Shown one piece after another: positions 69 to 62,000 of a DNA stretch of 64,000 bases (the stretch's first letter is position 1; every line of letters begins with the position of its first letter). Under the pieces are notes generated by a model. That model saw nothing but the letters and a program-made list of their open reading frames with translations. It made no database searches and was not told the DNA's origin. The position numbers and the translations under genes are program-made. The DNA comes from Rhododendron vialii (taxonomy: Eukaryota > Streptophyta > Magnoliopsida > Ericales > Ericaceae): positions 36,857,501-36,921,500 of the forward strand of contig NC_080567.1 in the NCBI RefSeq assembly GCF_030253575.1, given 5' to 3'.

Positions 69-2307
69 TGAAAAGTTTTTCTTGGCTTATCTGTTGGTCC
101 CTACAAATTGAGACTAGTTTCAAAATCATTCTCAAAGTTTTTCCTGTTTCGATTTAATCGTTTCTTTTGAAACCATGTGCCAATGTGATCGCTGCTGTCA
201 ATTAGTGACTGATGTGTCTAACAGATAATTGGGCAATTAAAAGAAAAAATCAAGGTCTTAAAGACTCTTAACCCACCGAAGCCCCATGCCCACCCATTTA
301 AACCAAAGATCCAAAGTGCTAGTAGCATTATTGAAATCAAAGACCAAAACGTTACCCACCACACTAGACCAAAGATTGATCCCCTCTGCATCATCTCCAC
401 CGATTCCTTTTCTCTTATTTCATCAATTGCTCTTAATAACCAAACAACACACTACTCAAAACCAGAAAAGTTCCCAAATTTTGAACCCAATTGATAATTT
501 TGCACAACAATTTTAGACTCTGTTTTTTTGCCCATAGTTTGTAGCAATTGAGCGTAATGTATTTGAGGGCTAGAAACGGATATTCGATTTGAAAATTAAC
601 AAGGTTTACAAACTTGGTTTTATTTGAATAGTTGAAAGGTCAGGAAAATAATGGTATTTCCAATTTTTAAAGTTTTAGAATGAGATAATTGTCAACTATT
701 TAAATGCCGTAAAAAGTGGGAAGGCTTTGCAAATCAGTCATGCTAAGACTACCGACTCCATCCAACATACCTATTGATATCCGTTAGAGTTGATTTTTCA
801 CTGAGCCTCATAAATAATTATACCTACCAAGCACTGATTATCAAACACTAGCAACGTATTCGTAATTTTAAATCCCGGGTTGCAAGCATATTAACCCGTT
901 AGCATTAAAATGCAAGTAAACAATGTAATTATCTAAGTATTTCTCATCTCAACATGACCAAGGACAACTACAAATACACCAAAGAATGCAAGGAGGTCAC
1001 ACAAATATTCTTTATTTTTTGTATTTTTTTTCAATTACTACAAGAGTTGACAATTAAAGGGAACACATGAAGTCATGACCCCACAAATAAATCTATCTTT
1101 CAAAAAACAGATTACAAGAAATTCAATAAACCCAATTCCACACAGATTATCCACCGTTACAATTGCGCAAAACAAAGATAATTGTCAAGGATGGGATAGG
1201 GAGGTCTAGTGCCGGCGGCCGCCACGACAAGAATTTTAGAAAACGCAATTATTATATGTGAAAAAAAATTTATCCCCAACTTATATAGTCTCGCCACTGC
1301 TAGATTTTTTCCTTATTTTTTATTATATACTAGTCATAAATCTTCTATTTGTTTTTCAAGAAAAGAGACCCAAAAAAGAATTTTAAAACTAAATTGAATA
1401 AGTCAAAGTGAAATAATATAAATGATGATGTGTAATTAAGAAAAAAAAAACTTCACATTAATTCTAACCCTAAAATAACTTAACCTAAAAAACTAAGGAA
1501 ATTTAATTATAATGTCACTTCCAAAAGGGAGTGCGGTTATCAATTTGGAAAATCTATATAGGGATTTGGAGAGTGACATTATCTTTGTGCATACCGATGC
1601 TCTGAACTATCAATGAAGGAAGCATAATAATGTGCATATAAATTGAATTGGATTTATAGGCCTGCCCTTTCTGATGTCATTTGGTTTTGATTTAGAGGCA
1701 TGGTTCCTCAACAAAAAACACATACAGGGAGGCTACTGTTTAAGTGGTATTCTGAGATCAGCCACTTTGTATATATTGTTAAAAGTTAGGTCTGTCTCCA
1801 ATCCTCCTCCGCTCATACTCCCAATGATTGGAGACTACATGGGTTCTGCTGTTGTTGTTGTTGGAGTGGTATTATCGATGCCCGAAATTAAAATTAGTCT
1901 TTTTTCATACTTTATGTACAAATGAAAAACATCATTTACTATAGTTTTTATTATGTTATTTTAATTTTTTCTGTAGCCGATTACAATTAATGTTGTAATG
2001 AATCTTTTTATTTTTTTAGTATACATTTCGCCACTGCTAGGGTAAAATACTGGTTCTATCCTTGATAATAGTTAACATTACAAACCAAACAACTCCCCAA
2101 CCCCAGTACAACTATCCTCGACCTCGATCGACAGAACTCCCCAATACAAACCAAACACCATTTGGTTTAACAATCGATCATAACCAGCGGTAAAGACACA
2201 TATACCTATCAGTATGAAAGGGTAGTATAGGTATTAAATAAAAGTTTTAAATTCATTAGCAAATTAGGTTTTTTCCTATAATCTAAAGTTTTGAAGCTTC
2301 CCTATTA
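69..2307. other. AT-rich spacer, no gene seen
   Basis: No reading frame here resembles a known protein. Apart from the SINE-like copy at 1726-1863, I see a 12-bp direct repeat CGCCACTGCTAG at 1292-1303 and again at 2029-2040, which may mark the borders of an old insertion, and a short GC-rich patch near 1211-1225. Confidence 0.5.
1726..1863 (+). mobile_element. tRNA-derived SINE-like element, copy 1
   Basis: About 138 bp with an A-box-like AAGTGGT segment, a B-box-like region (GGTCTGTCTCCAAT) and a 3' end TACATGGGTT followed by a run of TTG units. (TTG)n tails are typical of Au-type plant SINEs. A diverged second copy in the same orientation lies at 9789-9922 and aligns along almost the whole length, which supports a dispersed family. 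The exact ends and the family name are inference. Confidence 0.5.
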
Positions 2308-17777: not shown

Positions 17778-19580
17778 TCTATCTATCTATCAATATATTA
17801 TAGAAATGTAGTTGAAGCCTTACAACTGCTTCCAAATCCTTACTCCTAATTTCCTAGATTTTTTACTTTTTAAAAATGAAAAATCCCCCACCTTTGTCCC
17901 ACGCACATGGCAAACGGCCGGAAAAAAAAAACTGCCTCTTCTCCCATGCACGCGTACGCCAGTTAACATCCACGTCCTCATTCTTTTGAACTTAAATTTG
18001 AAAATTTTGTCCATTTTTGAATTTTTTTTGCAATTGTTAGTTTTGCGCCAAACTTTTGTGTGTCATTGATTCGTCTCGATGAGATGAATCGAAAAAGTAA
18101 ATTGTTTTTACTTTTACCTAAGTATTTAGAGAAATAACCATTTTTAATTTAGCCAAAAAATGACATTTTGACATAAAAAAATGATTATTTCTCAAAATAC
18201 TAGGGTAAAAGTAAAAAAAAAATTAACTCTTCCGATTCCTCTCATCGAATCAACAACCCACAAAAATTTGGCGCAAAACTAATAAATATAAAAAAAAATT
18301 CAAATAAAGACAAAATTTTTAAATTTAAGTTAAGTTTAAGTTAAGTTCAAAAGAATGCAGCCCGCTACCTCCCCGTTATGTTCTGCCACTATTTCCCTCC
18401 ACCTACCATTGTAAAAACTCTCCTCGTACACCATTCCCGTACACATCAAACAAACAAACAAAAAAAACCATCTAAACAAAAGAGCAATTAATGATCAAAA
18501 AAAACAAAAGAGCAAAATTGATTGCCATCCATTTTTTCCCCCAATATCTGTCCCAACTCGACCAAACCTCTCCTAATTAATGGTGTATCTACTTTTTTGT
18601 TCTCTATATTTTGATTAAAGTAAGATGTGTTCACCAACTACAAGAACGTACATTGAATTTTTGGAAGGGTTAGAAGTTGGCTGAACCATTAACTGGGAGT
18701 GACTTTGAATTTGGGTCTACAAAGAATTAGTGACTGCTCAATTCACTGCAATATTTGGTTTCAAGCTCGTCAACTACTCAAAGGTTAATTATAATACAAA
18801 TTGCATCCCCATGTCTTTATGTTATGTGTGCATAATATGATCTAATTCATATATTTCATGTAGAAAGGATAACTGCTTGATGGCTAGTATCTGTATGAGC
18901 GGTAACGTCCACGTAATGGTGTTCTCACTTTTTTGTCTTTAGATTTTGATTAATAAGTTGTGATCACTAACGTTTAGTTTCAGTGCTCATCCATTACTCA
19001 AAGGTCAGTCTTGCGAATTCTCTTCCTCTGCTTCTACCCATCAAATTGTGAGCGAAACAAAATTCGACCCACGTTTCACCCGTCCAATTGAAAGCATCTG
19101 GAAAGAAAAAAAGAGTCTCCCCCACGCCCATATACATAGTTGTTTTAATTATATATTTCATATTTTATGCAGGTTTCATGAGGTCTCCTCCATGTTTGCA
19201 TCGTAATGATTACTTAGATATGTTGAAATACCATACACAATTTTGAAACTAATCTCAGAGAGGGAGGGCTTCCCAATAGAAATTTTTGTTAAGCAAAAAA
19301 TAGAGGCATGTCAAGCCTTGCAAAAGCTTGGAGAAATTATAAGTGAACAATACCTTATGAAAAAAATAATAGAATTATAAAGTTAAACTAATTACGATCA
19401 TCTTTTATGGTTTCCTCATCGTAAATTAGTAAGTTTCATTTGTAAGTGATTAAGCAATGCAAGTGGGTATAGGTAGACAATCAAATTAGCGTTGTGCCCA
19501 TTCGATGTACATTAACGAGAAAAAAAAATCATCATGAACTTTTTTTTGTGGCCCCGTGCATTGAATGGACACAACACTAG
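17778..19580 (+). mobile_element. Candidate non-autonomous Helitron
   Basis: Starts with TC after an A (TCTATCTATCTATCAATATA, then ATGTAGTTGAAGCC) and ends with a GTGC...GCAC hairpin-forming stretch, then ACAACACTAG followed by T. A 5' TC, a 3' CTRR with a hairpin just inside, and insertion between A and T are the Helitron signature. It carries no Rep/helicase. A separate hairpin element (17979-18357) lies inside. The same 3' end recurs downstream at 19725 and 20075, each preceded by the same 5'-like motif, which supports the boundary call. Ends are weakly conserved, so confidence is moderate. Confidence 0.45.
17979..18357. mobile_element. 379-bp hairpin (fold-back) MITE
   Basis: Near-palindromic along its full length: the left end CATTCTTTTGAACTTAA is the exact reverse complement of the right end, and landmarks such as TTTTGCGCCAAA, the ATTCG..GATGAGA.GAAT block and TTTTACTTTTACC recur inverted on the other arm. 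The arms meet near 18150-18165. A related fragment lies in PheRS intron 1 (44571-44645), so the family is dispersed. It is coding-free and could yield double-stranded RNA if transcribed. Confidence 0.7.
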
Positions 19581-19586
19581 TAAATA

Positions 19587-19725
19587 TCCTATGCAAATGT
19601 AGTTGAAGCCAAATGCCTTTCAACCCTCAATTAGCGTTGTGCCCGTTCGATGTACATTAACGAGAAAAAAAAATCATCATGAACTTTTTTTTGTGGCCCC
19701 GTGCATTGAATGGGCACAACACTAG
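19587..19725 (+). mobile_element. Tandem Helitron-like unit, 145-bp period
   Basis: Begins TCCTATGCAAATGTAGTTGA and ends GGGCACAACACTAG before T. The 145-bp period repeats the end of the preceding element almost exactly (19486-19630 versus 19631-19775). Inside, an inverted version of the terminal sequence (TTAGCGTTGTGCCC) precedes an A/T-rich centre, so each unit also contains an 98-bp imperfect palindrome. The head-to-tail layout fits rolling-circle transposition or simple tandem duplication. Confidence 0.5.
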
Positions 19726-19731
19726 TAAATA

Positions 19732-20075
19732 TCCTATGCAAATGTAGTTGAAGCCAAATGCCTTTCAACCCTCAATTATAAATGACCTAGTGTGGAATGG
19801 GGGGGGGGGGAGAGAGAGAGAGAGAGAGATGTGGGGGTTGAATATGGAGGAAAAATAATTCTATATTTCTAGGACACTGTCACGTGGTACTCTAAATTCA
19901 TTTTTCACACATGTATGTTTTTCAGTGCATAGAACTAAACCAATGCTAGAGTGCATCGAACATGGGACCGAAAAAGAAAATTAAACTATTTAAGCAACTA
20001 GCGTTGTATCCATTTGATACACGGGGCCGAAGCGATTTTTTTTTATCCCGGCCACCGAACGGCCACAAACGCTAG
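19732..20075 (+). mobile_element. Third, more diverged Helitron-like unit
   Basis: Starts TCCTATGCAAATGTAGTTGA like the unit before it and ends CACAAACGCTAG followed by T (20076). The terminal 77 bp (19999-20075) again form a palindrome (CTAGCGTTGTATCC... / ...GGCCACAAACGCTAG). The interior contains a 12-base G run and (AG)n at 19799-19829, and diverges from the other two units. Confidence 0.4.
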
Positions 20076-35135: not shown

Positions 35136-35155
35136 TCACCGAGGAACTGCAAAGC
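35136..35155 (-). other. Candidate alternative last exon of the NFD6-like gene (ends GFAVPR)
   Basis: After a pyrimidine-rich tract (TTCTTTCTTCTTCTTTTTCC) and TAG acceptor, the bases complete the split glycine codon left by exon 2 (37780) and read F A V P R stop, giving ...LLSQGFAVPR. The nearer candidate at 36934-36915 gives ...LLSQGFATPL. Both are in correct phase and end after a handful of codons with nearly the same residues. Short alternative ends of this kind are, to my knowledge, known for NFD6-like transcripts in other plants. Use of this exon is inferred. Confidence 0.5.
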
Positions 35156-35679
35156 CTACGCAATGCCAACGAAGGGATATACCGGAAAAAGAAGAAGAAA
35201 GAATCAGTGGTGGACTTGCTTGAGTGGTGAGAAAATGAGAGAAAATGAAAGCAATGTCGTAAGATCTGAAAGAATAAAAAGATACATTGCCCGGACTCAT
35301 AGCAGAGACAGATAAAGGAAACAAGTGCAGATTTGGGTAAAGTCTCAATAACACCATGAACTGACTTGAGGCCTGAGAGACTCACAAGTTTAACAAGGGG
35401 TTGATCGGACTTTTCCTGTTCCTTTGTTCGCGATGGGGACACCCACTCCCTAGTAAAAGCACATCTAGAGTGACAAGAAAACTGCAATACATTCAGTACA
35501 GCTAGATAAATACTGCCGGCAGACTTCTGAGCACCGCGTTCATACTTCATACCAGATGCAGCCCAACAAGTTTAACAAGTCATAATAGATGTTTCCTGCT
35601 CGTTTGTCCCCAAACGTACACCCCCGTGACCATTAACTAGAGTCATCCCTCGAGTCTCATTAAAAGATATTCTTACCAC

Positions 35680-35682
<3 letters not shown>

Positions 35683-35734
<52 letters not shown>
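35683..35734. repeat. (GA)26 microsatellite
   Basis: Perfect dinucleotide run in the spacer/intron between the two candidate terminal exons of the NFD6-like gene. Confidence 0.85.
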
Positions 35735-35737
<3 letters not shown>

Positions 35738-36118
35738 CTTGTTTCTTAGACAAGAATCGTAAAGAAATAGAAAATGTTCCATGGTGGGAAGACTGATGCT
35801 TAAGCAATGCAGCTGTCCCTTGTGGCAAAGAAAATTATTCTTGACATCGAGAATGTCTCAAAATAGACCTAGCTAAGAAATTGGAAGATCCCCAAAAAAA
35901 GAAGCAAGACAAAAAAAAAAAAGAGGAGAAAGATTAAGGTGCATTGCCACCAGAAAGTATGTGACAGAAAATCATTAAGTAGATTCTTCCCCTTCCTAAT
36001 TGATGGACAATATCTCACCGGGTAATGGCCACTGAACACTAAATTTTATTACGTCATGCGTCGTAAAGCGTGCCACACGGATAGATCAACATCAAGAGAC
36101 TGTCGATCCCATGTGAAC

Positions 36119-36119
<1 letters not shown>

Positions 36120-36180
<61 letters not shown>

Positions 36181-36182
36181 GA

Positions 36183-36226
<44 letters not shown>
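36120..36226. repeat. Long interrupted (GA)n microsatellite
   Basis: About 107 bp of GA dinucleotides with two GGGAG interruptions. It produces artificial open frames of Arg-Glu or Ser-Leu repeats on both strands; these are not genes. Confidence 0.9.
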
Positions 36227-36230
<4 letters not shown>

Positions 36231-36914
36231 ACCAATAGTATGGAAAGGGTTCAACCAAAAGTGAGCAGTCCTTAACTCATCACCTAAGTCTTTGACAAAG
36301 TTAATCTATACTTTTGTGCGGATTTTTCCACATGTAGCAGTTAATAGTTCATATTCAACTGTGTTTTTGTTCCGGGATAAACTATTGTCAAGTTGATGAT
36401 TGCCGGAAGCGGAAACCAACAAGAAAACTTAGACACAAAATGTCTTGCTTTCTAAGCAAAACTTCCACAATTTTTCCAAACAAAAACCCCAGGAATTTTT
36501 TTTGTCAGAAATGCCGCATTGCGACTAGCCCAAATTCCCAAATAAAATGTAACTATCAACAAAGCACCCCACAGATTCTGTAATAATCAGTGATGCATTA
36601 AAACAGGCAGAAAGTGAAAATCTGACAGAGATATAGACCCCATAGATATCATTTGCAGCAGTTATCCTCATTCACTCCTTCCACAGAAACAACTTCAAAA
36701 AGGCAGAGTTATAAGTCCATGAAAGGAGCATAAATGGAGATGCTAACTAAGAGCTGAAGTTAATGGCACAACTCAAAAACTTGAGGTGAACTGTTTACAC
36801 ACACTGCAGAATTCAATGCCAAATTTTTTAAACTTGAAGGACTTCTCCATCGACAAAACGTTATGGAATCAAATCCTACTCGCTTATTGCCCCGGATAAA
36901 TCCAGCAAGCGATG

Positions 36915-38535
36915 TCACAACGGTGTTGCAAATCCTATATCAAAAGGTAGAAGACCAATGTCAGCATAGACATCGCAAAGAAACCGAGAGGTGTGACATT
37001 GTCACAACCAGTTATTGCATAAAACAATAAATACCGGTGAGTTGGTAATTGATATTGAAACTGCAGGGACCGAACTAAAGAGAGTCAATGGGGGTGCCAC
37101 ATACTTCTCTGACTAAACAATGCCTATACAAATGTAGCAGCGCTGTTTATTTGATTAACATTGACAACGCTAGTTGGGTGTTTTGATCCTTTAACATAAA
37201 GAAGAATAAGACCATTATTCTCCCTAGTAACAGAATATGATCCCCTGGCCCCACATACCCCATCGTTGTAAAGATTATTCTCCCATCCAATTCTTAGCAA
37301 CAATTGACATACTTGTTTTTGGGAGATACATCCTTCTCACCTTTTGCAGGAAGCTTACAAGTGTTTCAGCAACATATTCATTTCTCTTCTACCAATGAAA
37401 ACTTTTGCAGGAAGCTAATGAGTGTTTCAGCAACATATTTGTGGACCAGGATAATTTATTGTCCCCCCTTCCTAAAAGATCTTGCTTCCGTCCCAGATAG
37501 AGTGTTTTTCTGTTTCTCTTTTTCAAACGAATGCGGAACACTAGAAGCCCAAAACCACACACAACATCAGCAAGAAGCATTACTCATACCATTCATATCA
37601 ATGTATCCTACTTAGTTGTATATATTAATATACGAACAACCAATCTACTTTACTAGGCTGCTCTGTTCAAACGAAAACGAAAACAAGCTAAAACAGATGT
37701 AATTTGACAAAGCAGCAGAAACTAAAAGATAGAAAGGATAACTTTGAAGGGAAGAAAAGATATGTCAGAGGAGAGGTACCCTGAGAAAGCAAGCTCCAGC
37801 AGGTGGAATCAACAGCGATGCTGGACCTCAGACGAGCAGAAGCAATTACGCTGTGAAGTGGCATCATTGACTCCACGCTTCCCAGCACCGCAGCTATCCT
37901 GAAACCCAACAAACCTACTTAGACAAATGCAGAAATACACAAACAAATGCAAATCTATCTATTGATACGCTGTACTAAAAAGTGTATCCAACATGGAAAT
38001 CCTTTTTTCCAAGAAAATGAATAAAATCACACAAAAATCCACATCTTCCCTCTTCCCTCTCCACTTCTCATTTTATTCTCTTCTCCACCCTTTCACTTCC
38101 CCACGTCACTCATTTACTGCCCACACACCCTTTTCTTCCTCTACCATTTCACTTTCCGAAGTCATTAGCCAATATATCTTTCGAATAATTGGATAATTTT
38201 AACTTTTTTCTTATTGGAAACTCCATAATTAATCTCTTATCAATATAGTTTTTTTCTCTACAATTCATGTTGTTTACTTTTCACAATCTAATTATTGCGT
38301 AAGACAAAATATATTTTTTCCTGCTACGCACGTACCGCGCTTGTGTGTACATATACATCCACATATACATATGTTCGAGTGTTAGGAGTTACCTTGAAGC
38401 AGCGGAAGACCTTGTGGAAGAGGAGAAGGGAGAAGGGGGGCTGGATTTGGGTGATAAGAGGTTTTTGAGAAGTGGTGTTTTGGATCGAGCTGCGACGGAC
38501 CTTGCTCCCGCCATTACTGCCGATCTGCAGGCCGA

Positions 38536-38541
<6 letters not shown>
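36915..38541 (-). CDS. NUCLEAR FUSION DEFECTIVE 6 / NOXY2-like small mitochondrial protein
   Basis: Exons 38541-38393, 37898-37780 and 36934-36915 give 95 aa. The N-terminus MASACRSAVMAGARSVAARS is rich in Ala, Arg and Ser without acids, a typical mitochondrial presequence, followed by a Ser/Pro stretch. Exon 2 encodes the family core RIAAVLGSVESMMPLHSVIA then SARLRSSIAVDS. The last exon has only 20 nt (ends GFATPL). In Arabidopsis, NFD6 is needed for polar nuclei fusion and NOXY2 for the 9-HOT oxylipin response; both are mitochondrial. Molecular role is unknown. The ATG directly abuts a (GA)18 tract that forms the end of the leader. Reading through the exon 2 donor would add a hydrophobic tail. 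The gene is divergent from the complex I TYKY gene, with a shared upstream region of about 460 bp. Confidence 0.85.
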
Positions 38542-39002: not shown

Positions 39003-42909
<3,907 letters not shown>

Positions 42910-58421: not shown

Positions 58422-59013
58422 ATTTCATCCTTTAGTTTTCATCTAGTGTTCAATAGCTGATGCAACTATAAGGAGACTGCTCAGAAACATTTTTGTTTTC
58501 AGTTATTTTGCTCTTGTTTCTTAAGTTTTTAGAAACAGGCAGCTTTATTACTTGATTGGAAATACTGCCTTTGGTTGATGAATGGGACTCAAGATGCTAT
58601 CTTGTGCTGTTATCGTGCCAAGATTCAGAGCTAAATAAATTGTACTCTGTAATATACTTCTTTATTTGTTTTTGGCTTCAATGTATGGAGATGAGTATAT
58701 TGCTTGGGTTTGTCTGTTGTTTTCGTTCTCCCCCAGTTTACTAGGACACGAAGCTTGGTTTGATTTTGTTGTTTGTTTTCAACTGTGGTGGTCTCCCCCA
58801 GTTTACTAGGACACGAAGCTTGGTTTGGTTTTGTTGTTTGTTTTCAACTGTGGTGTATGATGAGGCCACATGGTCCACACCCACTGCAATTGCAGTTAAT
58901 TTTTGAATTTCTTCTGTATCAGCTACATATGTTTCCAAAAAAAAACCCTGAAGCTGTAACTGAGAATTTTTTTTTTCGACGAACGCTGTAACTGAGAATT
59001 GTACATATGAATC
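58422..59013. other. Spacer between convergent L27 and mTERF2-like genes
   Basis: Holds both 3' UTRs and the 65-bp tandem duplication at 58727-58856. No gene seen. Confidence 0.5.
58727..58856. repeat. 65-bp tandem duplication downstream of L27
   Basis: Two adjacent copies (58727-58791 and 58792-58856) share TCTCCCCCAGTTTACTAGGA and ACACGAAGCTTGGTTTG with only about two differences: a recent tandem duplication. Confidence 0.85.
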
Positions 59014-62000
59014 CTATTGTGTATTCAACAGTCTTTGATGATTCTCGTTTTCTGTATGAGTATCAGAGGAAGTATAGTCATTTACACGTAAATCAACCGA
59101 CGTCCTCTCTATGGGATCATTACATTGAGAATCAGATGAGTAGTTATAGCTTTCTATGGAACCACCAGTTTGAGAATCAGATGAGTTGTCTATGACACCA
59201 GATTCAAATCTTCGGCGCCTTTCTACTGCAGCCTGAACTCTCTGGTCAAATTCTTCGTCTGTGCCTGGCAACATGTACCGCAGTTTAAAATTTACCCTAT
59301 TCTCGACCAGAATCTTGTGCCTTGGAATTATTCGTCCGTCAAGGGAGTAACTGAAGAACCTGTAAATAAGAAACAGTAGTATAGCAATTTGGTGAAATTC
59401 CCAAACTGAAAATGTTATTCAAACGTTACCTTAGATTGATCACTGAACTAGTTTTAAATAAGATGAAAATTCAGGAATAACTGTAGGAAAACAATGAAAA
59501 TCAGAGAGACTCACCTTGGAAACTCGATGAGATCCTTCAAAGGCCGAACCATAGTCCTCCGCAAATAGCGGTACTTCGGACGGAGGATGTCTATGTTGTA
59601 CCGGAGTAGCATGGGAAAATCAGCGACCATTTCACCCAATAATCGAAGAGAAATACCGAGCGATAGAAAATACTTCACATTAACTTCCAGCTTATGATGT
59701 ATGCTGCACCCCAAGAGCTCTGGCCCCAAAGCTATTGCCTTTCCAATATCCCTCTTTGCAACCCCAGCTTTCGTCAACAAGAATATGACCTGTACGAAAA
59801 TATAGTGAAAACTAAGTTGATTTTCTTTGGATATATGAAAGCAAGTTCCATAAAAGAAAAATACAAAAAAAAAAATGTCGATAGACCACCAGACTGGGCA
59901 GCATGTTGGTCAATCGATATGCCGAAAGATAAGTTTAACACAATGAAAGTAACTCACAGTTTGGAGCTAAACACCTTAATGCTTGAAAAGCAGAAACTAA
60001 GGAACATGAAAAAATTAACAAAGTTGGTGAAGCGCTATAAGTAGAAATGAAAAGGAAGGAAATTGACGTACCACTGGCCGGATTTTCTTGTAGAGGCTGT
60101 AAGTCAGTAATGGAGGAAACTTGACAAGCATGTTGCCTATGGCAGTTTCTCGAACACCAATGTCGCGCAAAAATTGTACCTTCACTACGCGAAACAGATA
60201 TTTGTAAAGAAAGCTTGCGAGTAAAGCTGCATTGTTTCAGCATAGAGAATTTTCCAGTTCTAGACTTTGCAAGCAAACAAGTTAAACTTGAGAGAAATTT
60301 TTTTGGTCAGGTGGACCAAGTCTAACTCCAAACTGACAGCAAAAAAATCTACCAAATAATAGAAATAGACTCTTCAGATATTTTGCCATTTAGAATATAA
60401 TTCAACACGACGATGTTTACAACAGGTGAAAGCATACCTTTGGCACAATGTTGCTCTCCAAATCAACACAGAAAACCATTGGTTTGATCGTAAGTATTCT
60501 CCTCATACCATCTTTCGAAACCCCTAGGTAATATAGATACTTGACAAGGGGCTTCCATCTTTCCTCAATGCTGCAACGCATCAACTCAGGCCTGAATGCT
60601 AATAGTCGCCCAACATCTTCATAGCTGAGGCCAAATTCCATGAGATAACGTACCTGAATGAATGAAAGTGTAAAAAGGGCATTCCCCAATCTTAGCAGTT
60701 ACAGAGTCATGTTTGGTGATTGGACTTAGCACAATGAGAGAATACGGGAATTGCTGCATTAAATATCCTTCCTATAACTATGGAAACAATGCCACTAAGG
60801 AATTTCTTTTGGCAATATATGTCAAGAGTAATCACGTTACCAATTCTCTAATACTCCAAACATGGGAATTCACTTCATCAAATTTTGAAATTTTCAAATG
60901 TACAGACTACAGATCACTTTCTAACCTAATATATGAACCAGAGATTTTTACCTTTTGCTTCATCTCTTCCATTGAGAAGTAGCCTAACACCTGGGGATAA
61001 TCAAAAACCATTGTTCCAAAATCTTTATCATTCATGCCCATATCCAAGAAAAATAGCACCCGAGATTTCAGTTCTTCCATACTGTAAGACAACAATTGAG
61101 GACATTGGCTCATGACATAACCCATCCAAACCCTCCTCACTCCTTGGCTTTCTAGATAACCAACAATCTCATCCAATTCTTCTGGACTGCGTCCCAACAT
61201 ATTCTCTCCTGATTTCGTCAATGCCACCCCGATAAATCTCCCCTTCACATTAATTGATTTCACCCATTCAGCAACATGCCTTATGGCATAAAGATTCCCT
61301 CTTGACATGCATATGAGCTTCGCAATTTGAGGATATGACAGCGAATTGTGTTTCAGCCACCTATACATTTCAGTAACCAAACCAACAAAGAAAAGTTTTA
61401 GCATTGAGTCCCTTCCTTCTCATTTCTATCCAATATTGAGCAAATCCAATAGTTGGAATTTGGCCACAAACCAACAATGCTGACAAATTTTGTTGGGTTA
61501 CGTTCTTGTTAAAAAGATATTCATGATAAGCCAAGACTAACTAAGAAACTACTTCCGGTGTTACATGGACTCTTCTAATTTCCCAACATCACCCATTGTC
61601 CAATGACTATGACATGGAATGGTGAGGGATTTGGGTGTACGGATACGAGATTTGTGCCTTCACCCATACAAATTAGATACTTGGATCCTCTACTTTTCTA
61701 CGCTGTTTGAGGAAAATGAAGCTCAAATCAGCTGAAAAGAAACATTTCTCGCCTTTGACATAAATATGCAAGAGAATTTCCATTCTTCATAAGCACCCAA
61801 TTATACCCAAGTCTATCATCATTGTTATGAAGTTTTCCTCCATACTCAGGATGCCACAGTGAATATGGACACATACATATGCACACACGAATTCTATGAC
61901 ATGAACTGAAAACCTCTATGATAAAAACTGAAAAAACAATCCGAATTTTCTTAGGTGGTTTTGTTATTGTACCTGATAAGTGGGACAACATTAGAATCAT

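Follow-up and report, generated by a model that had tools for sequence, protein, structure and literature searches.

Alternative last exons usually encode unrelated tails. In the public annotation of many plants, several different tails are found for the NFD6/NOXY2-like family, of which we take AT5G47455 and AT5G11630 to be members. An Arabidopsis proteome survey with peptide support for 2442 events counts 13 alternative last exons among them (PMC13136898).

Papers that mention NFD6/NOXY2-like genes report transcripts.1,.2 and.3 of AT2G20585, nuclear fusion defective 6, in Arabidopsis (PMC3553062), an alteration of AT5G47455 intron retention by SC35/SCL proteins (PMC5362245), an alfalfa isoform, G1130.10, named NFD6, chloroplastic (PMC8390513), and, in a genome paper, NFD6/NOXY2-like proteins that are lateral-root-associated (PMC12903786). 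The organelle differs between papers: a table of chloroplast-protein genes includes AT2G20585, AT5G47455 and AT5G11630 (PMC3083342), whereas mitochondrial aggregates are described for noxy2 mutants (PMC8358658). In the literature on NFD6/NOXY2 genes, covered mostly through papers open without subscription, no account of paired similar last exons was found, and a literature search for six peptides, taken from the window or guessed, gave a sole match, SLLSQG, in a Toxoplasma paper. In two papers, plant microexons are internal exons whose length is put at 1-15 nt or at up to 51 nt (PMC8831610; PMC12409088).

Here we describe an NFD6-like gene of Rhododendron vialii, located in a window of 64 kb (the whole stretch of DNA analysed), in which the codon left open by the second exon can be completed at two downstream sites, each of which gives a similar six-residue tail.

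Results

One donor and two in-phase ends

The coding parts of the gene are as follows.

38541-38393, minus strand: exon 1, coding part, from the ATG to the donor CAAG/GTAACT, 149 nt
37898-37780, minus strand: exon 2, 119 nt, ending in VESMMPLHSVIASARLRSSIAVDSTCWSLLSQ and the G that opens a Gly codon
36934-36915, minus strand: candidate proximal last exon 3a, coding head and stop (GFATPL-stop), with the 3' UTR running on downstream
35155-35136, minus strand: candidate distal last exon 3b, coding head and stop (GFAVPR-stop), with the 3' UTR running on downstream

Joined in frame, exons 1 and 2 make 268 nt and leave one base (G) over, which results in a split glycine codon. Exon 3a would start at 36934, after ...GATATAG, and completes this codon in the reading G/GA TTT GCA ACA CCG TTG TGA; exon 3b would start at 35155, after ...TTGCGTAG, and completes it in the reading G/GC TTT GCA GTT CCT CGG TGA. 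By arithmetic, the predicted introns from exon 2 are 845 nt (to 3a) and 2,624 nt (to 3b) long, and each candidate last exon consists of a 17-nt coding head followed by 3' UTR. One donor is thus faced by two in-phase acceptors with a stop after each, which at the sequence level is the arrangement of alternative last exons. The sequence-only reading, which had placed two in-phase ends here to complete the Gly codon of exon 2, is borne out on this point and its coordinates are right.

Its wording for the tails went further than the data allow. GFATPL and GFAVPR have four of six residues in common and their coding heads match at 13 of 20 bases, stop included, so that "near-identical" is an overstatement, and "hydrophobic" does not suit a C terminus that ends in Leu in the 3a tail and in Arg in the 3b tail. 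The predicted proteins, of 95 residues each, would be the same except at residue 93 (T/V) and residue 95 (L/R). The label "micro-exon" is also wrong, since 3a and 3b are candidate last exons, in which a brief coding head precedes the 3' UTR, and not internal ones: among the best 25 of 243 donors, none lies 51 nt or less after 36934 or 35155, as an internal exon of that size would need, and the nearest are at 36487 and 34894, respectively.

The predicted protein has the N terminus MASACRSAVMAGARSVAARSK. By composition count, residues 1-50 include no acidic, 8 basic and 16 Ser/Thr residues, which fits an organelle presequence, and the product is probably a small, organelle-targeted protein. The name NFD6-like, together with the likeness of the core that it implies, is our assumption. 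A Pfam search of the predicted protein gave no match, and the one match in the PDB (E 0.39, a probable acetyltransferase) was taken as chance. The collections scanned for relatives were of viruses, bacteria and archaea, not plants. The peptide pattern matched 71 stretches of the viral collection and 590 of the genome collection (bacteria and archaea), none of which was confirmed as a relative; the core-motif pattern matched no viral stretch and 27 stretches of the genome collection, which their titles place in bacteria, and none of these was confirmed as a relative either.

Weak donors are common in regulated introns. The exon 2 donor, CAGG/GTACCT, is weak: by an approximate matrix it scores 0.9 and comes 19th among 243 GTs. 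The frame that would be retained beyond this donor is open for 29 residues after the Gly. Both features would suit a gene whose downstream acceptors are little used and whose main alternative is the unspliced exon 2 donor, with a retained-intron protein ending in SQGTSPLTYLFFPSKLSFLSFSFCCFVKLHLF. Regulated retention, of an intron not specified, is described for Arabidopsis AT5G47455 (PMC5362245), presumed above to be a member of the family. Such an explanation, which leaves the paired in-phase ends unaccounted for, appears highly improbable to us, and retention may in any case coexist with both ends.

Splice sites of 3a and 3b

Acceptors (158) and donors (243) were ranked with an approximate matrix. 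The acceptor of 3a ranks 3 of 158 and that of 3b 14 of 158; the "good acceptor" that had been attributed to both ends is therefore a fair description of 3a, whereas the one of 3b is mediocre. The best acceptor by rank lies just upstream of 3b.

35280-35266, minus strand: competing acceptor TTTTTATTCTTTCAG (exon start 35265), rank 1 of 158, 110 nt upstream of 3b

Joined to exon 2, this acceptor would give a different tail of 20 residues, and it has no branch point with any of the five motifs considered below. A further AG is found nine bases into 3b (35146; rank 16 of 158), from which the tail would be VPR.

The better acceptor of 3a, the distance of 126 nt between 3a and the previous AG (rank 2 of 160) and the stronger acceptor at 35265 all favour an explanation in which 3a alone is a real last exon; 3b would then be either fortuitous or a decayed remnant, and the sequence around it would lie downstream of the gene or within a long 3' UTR. 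Set against this are the rarity of a chance match, given in the next section, and the context of 3b itself, which is the first AG after a CTGAT branch-point motif, 49 nt upstream, and a pyrimidine-rich run (73% over 37 nt), the previous AG being 59 nt away. On balance we regard the restriction to 3a as unlikely.

A branch-point motif is present at 3a as well (CTGAC, 27 nt upstream). When a CTRAY motif had to lie 18 to 55 nt upstream, the interval being free of other AGs, five of the 160 AGs from 37759 to 34501 passed, 3a and 3b both among them; four looser motifs were passed by 8, 11, 17 and 18 of the 160, and every one of these sets contains both ends. Over the whole window and both strands, 80 of 3035 YAG sites pass the strict CTRAY test. 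The test is post hoc, having been chosen after CTGAC and CTGAT were noticed in the sequence, and the acceptor of exon 2 itself fails all five versions, so that the result is to be taken as support and not as proof.

Chance and DNA-level resemblance

The 267 AGs between 37700 and 32000 were joined to exon 2 and the tails of at most 20 residues were listed; GFA.P. tails occur among these at 3a and 3b only. On both strands of the 64 kb, GFA.P. and a stop after any AG gives two strict matches, both on the minus strand, namely 3a and 3b, and a looser tail (same length, at least four of six matches) gives one further match, on the plus strand. When the 2.9 kb that follows 3a was shuffled with its dinucleotides preserved, a strict second end (GFA.P. 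and a stop after AG) arose in 2 of 20,000 cases and a loose one (six residues, at least four matches to GFATPL) in 70 of 20,000; the loose figure, 0.35%, is the fairer of the two because the strict pattern had been derived from the very pair under test. The paired ends are unlikely to be a chance product. These shuffles, along with the post hoc branch-point test, lend the earlier claim that the paired ends encode related tails a support that goes beyond chance.

At the DNA level, the likeness of the coding heads does not extend outwards: the next three 20-base blocks downstream match at 5, 5 and 6 of 20 positions, and the three blocks upstream at 10, 7 and 8 of 20, pyrimidine-rich stretches included. 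When 60 nt around each acceptor were aligned locally, 117 of 2000 shuffles did as well or better, which makes the DNA-level resemblance weak when taken alone; the pairing owes its strength to the frame, the length, the residues and the stop that the two ends have in common. For 700-nt stretches around each acceptor, the best local alignment does not pair the two heads. A recent tandem duplication of the exon was rejected as an origin, as the clear likeness is confined to the 20-base head and no clear duplicated flank is seen.

The region between and beyond the ends

Donor-like sites occur after 3a at 36487 (score 0.47), 36018 (3.04), 35676 (4.13) and 35552 (4.26), all among the best 25 of 243 donors and to be compared with 0.9 for the donor of exon 2. 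Together with the top-ranked acceptor at 35265, they would allow 3a to be an internal exon that is spliced, within its 3' UTR, to an exon at 35265 or 35155; the isoforms would then have the last 3' UTR in common and be told apart by whether 3a is included, and inclusion could affect nonsense-mediated decay. However, the nearest donor among the best 25 of 243 would produce an exon of ~447 nt and the next one an exon of ~916 nt, both long for a plant cassette exon, and we find an internal 3a quite unlikely.

Plant poly(A) signals are degenerate. A motif scan gave a single AATAAA, at 36050, over 1,234 nt following 3a and none over 855 nt following 3b, where TGTA motifs and variants occur. Three dinucleotide tracts accompany the ends and the start codon.

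36226-36121, minus strand (sense): CU tract of 53 units (106 bases) between 3a and 3b; GA on the plus strand, 96% matches
35734-35683, minus strand (sense): CU tract of 26 units (52 bases) between 3a and 3b, from the tandem-repeat scan
38576-38541, minus strand (sense): GA tract of 18 units adjoining the start codon, its last A being the A of the ATG

The GA tract by the ATG is complementary to both CU tracts over 36 to 37 bases with no mismatch. Since six GA/CT arrays are found within the 64 kb, this complementarity may be that of ordinary microsatellites. The CU tract at 36121-36226 is a possible pyrimidine-tract-binding site, and the CU tracts are candidate control elements for the choice of end. 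A plant study reports that a cassette exon cannot be included unless PTB binds specifically (PMC10914923). The RNA structure predicted between the ends, at 35683-36227, was no better than that of shuffled sequences (z -1.20; 15 of 100 as good). In the intron after exon 2, a 38-base direct repeat is present (37341-37378 and 37402-37439, 92% identical, spacing 61).

A stop-free frame of 189 residues runs over the distal region (35571-35002, minus strand), in a frame different from that of GFAVPR. Frames of at least 187 residues arose in 2 of 2000 shuffles of the distal region with the microsatellites cut out, and an acceptor at 35372 (rank 9 of 158) would join it to exon 2 in phase, with 123 residues of the frame then being read. 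We rejected it as a gene on account of its flat codon-position GC and a Pfam match at E 0.082 only, which is below the cut-off.

Elsewhere, the window contains split genes and GA/CT microsatellites, as well as two-copy tandem repeats at 19484-19778 (145-base unit) and 58727-58855 (65-base unit), with 98% matches each. At the Rfam gathering thresholds, the only match in the window was a full-length snoR100 H/ACA snoRNA (1611-1718, plus strand, 72.5 bits), and no tRNA was found. Three of the ten open frames scanned gave Pfam matches. One of them, at 42354-42752 on the plus strand, carries a 4Fe-4S domain (Fer4, E 5.6e-9); it resembles, we presume, the complex I 23-kDa subunit, and may be another mitochondrial gene nearby. 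The other two, at 59014-59418 and 60907-61419 on the minus strand, match mTERF (E 1.8e-5 and 6.7e-13, respectively) and are perhaps parts of one organelle transcription-factor gene. With its split genes, microsatellites, snoRNA and Pfam matches, the window has the character of plant nuclear DNA.

Discussion

Reading frame, phase and splice-site anatomy are in order at both ends, and the probability that the second arose by chance is low. We propose, as the moderately probable explanation, that 3a and 3b are alternative last exons coupled to alternative polyadenylation, and we infer from this the existence of both mRNAs and of a poly(A) site for each. The weak donor of exon 2, the three transcripts of AT2G20585 and the altered intron retention of AT5G47455, a presumed family member, also speak for this proposal. 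One pre-mRNA would thus contain two alternative last exons, with the weak donor of exon 2 giving time for the acceptors to compete. Splicing of exon 2 to the proximal exon 3a would yield the GFATPL end. If neither the 3a acceptor nor the poly(A) sites downstream of it are used, exon 2 would instead be joined to the distal exon 3b and the protein would end in GFAVPR. The outcome would be mRNAs with entirely different 3' UTRs that encode nearly the same protein, and the main consequence would lie in the 3' UTR. A 3' UTR switch would be the logical outcome of the use of both ends, and such a switch is plausible.

A stronger version of alternative last exons would have the heads of two terminal exons, unrelated in their flanks, held separately to the GFA.P. 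tail, which would allow the 3' UTR to be swapped with almost the same protein. The CU tracts would decide between the ends, either as sites for pyrimidine-tract-binding proteins or by pairing with the GA tract at the start codon. This version strikes us as improbable, and we offer it as a speculation.

Should both ends prove to be used and conserved, the gene would be a clean example from nature of alternative last exons that replace the 3' UTR and leave the protein nearly as it was. One could then test, with little confounding by the protein, what the UTR does to the localisation, stability or translation of an mRNA for an organelle protein. If it is the Leu/Arg difference that matters instead, the locus would represent a two-residue protein switch near the C terminus of an organelle protein.

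Several known systems resemble this locus in part. Mutually exclusive duplicated exons likewise offer two similar coding exons of which one is used at a time, but their homology extends over the exon and often the flanks, whereas 3a and 3b are without a clear duplicated flank and each has its own stop. Plant microexons have in common with the two ends a very short coding segment; they are internal, whereas 3a and 3b are candidate terminal exons in which only the coding head is short. With the NFD6/NOXY2-like small plant organelle proteins, the predicted product shares a short Ser/Arg-rich N terminus without acidic residues, and the gene shares the prospect of multiple transcripts, as in AT2G20585; the likeness of the core is presumed, and Pfam gives no match. 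Multiple NFD6 transcripts are not new. The closest likeness is to alternative last exons with alternative polyadenylation, in which a single donor can be spliced to either of two terminal exons further down, and a separate stop and 3' UTR come with each of them. The tails of such exons are usually unrelated, whereas here they are similar over six residues, and this similarity of the two tails is the unusual feature within a known kind.
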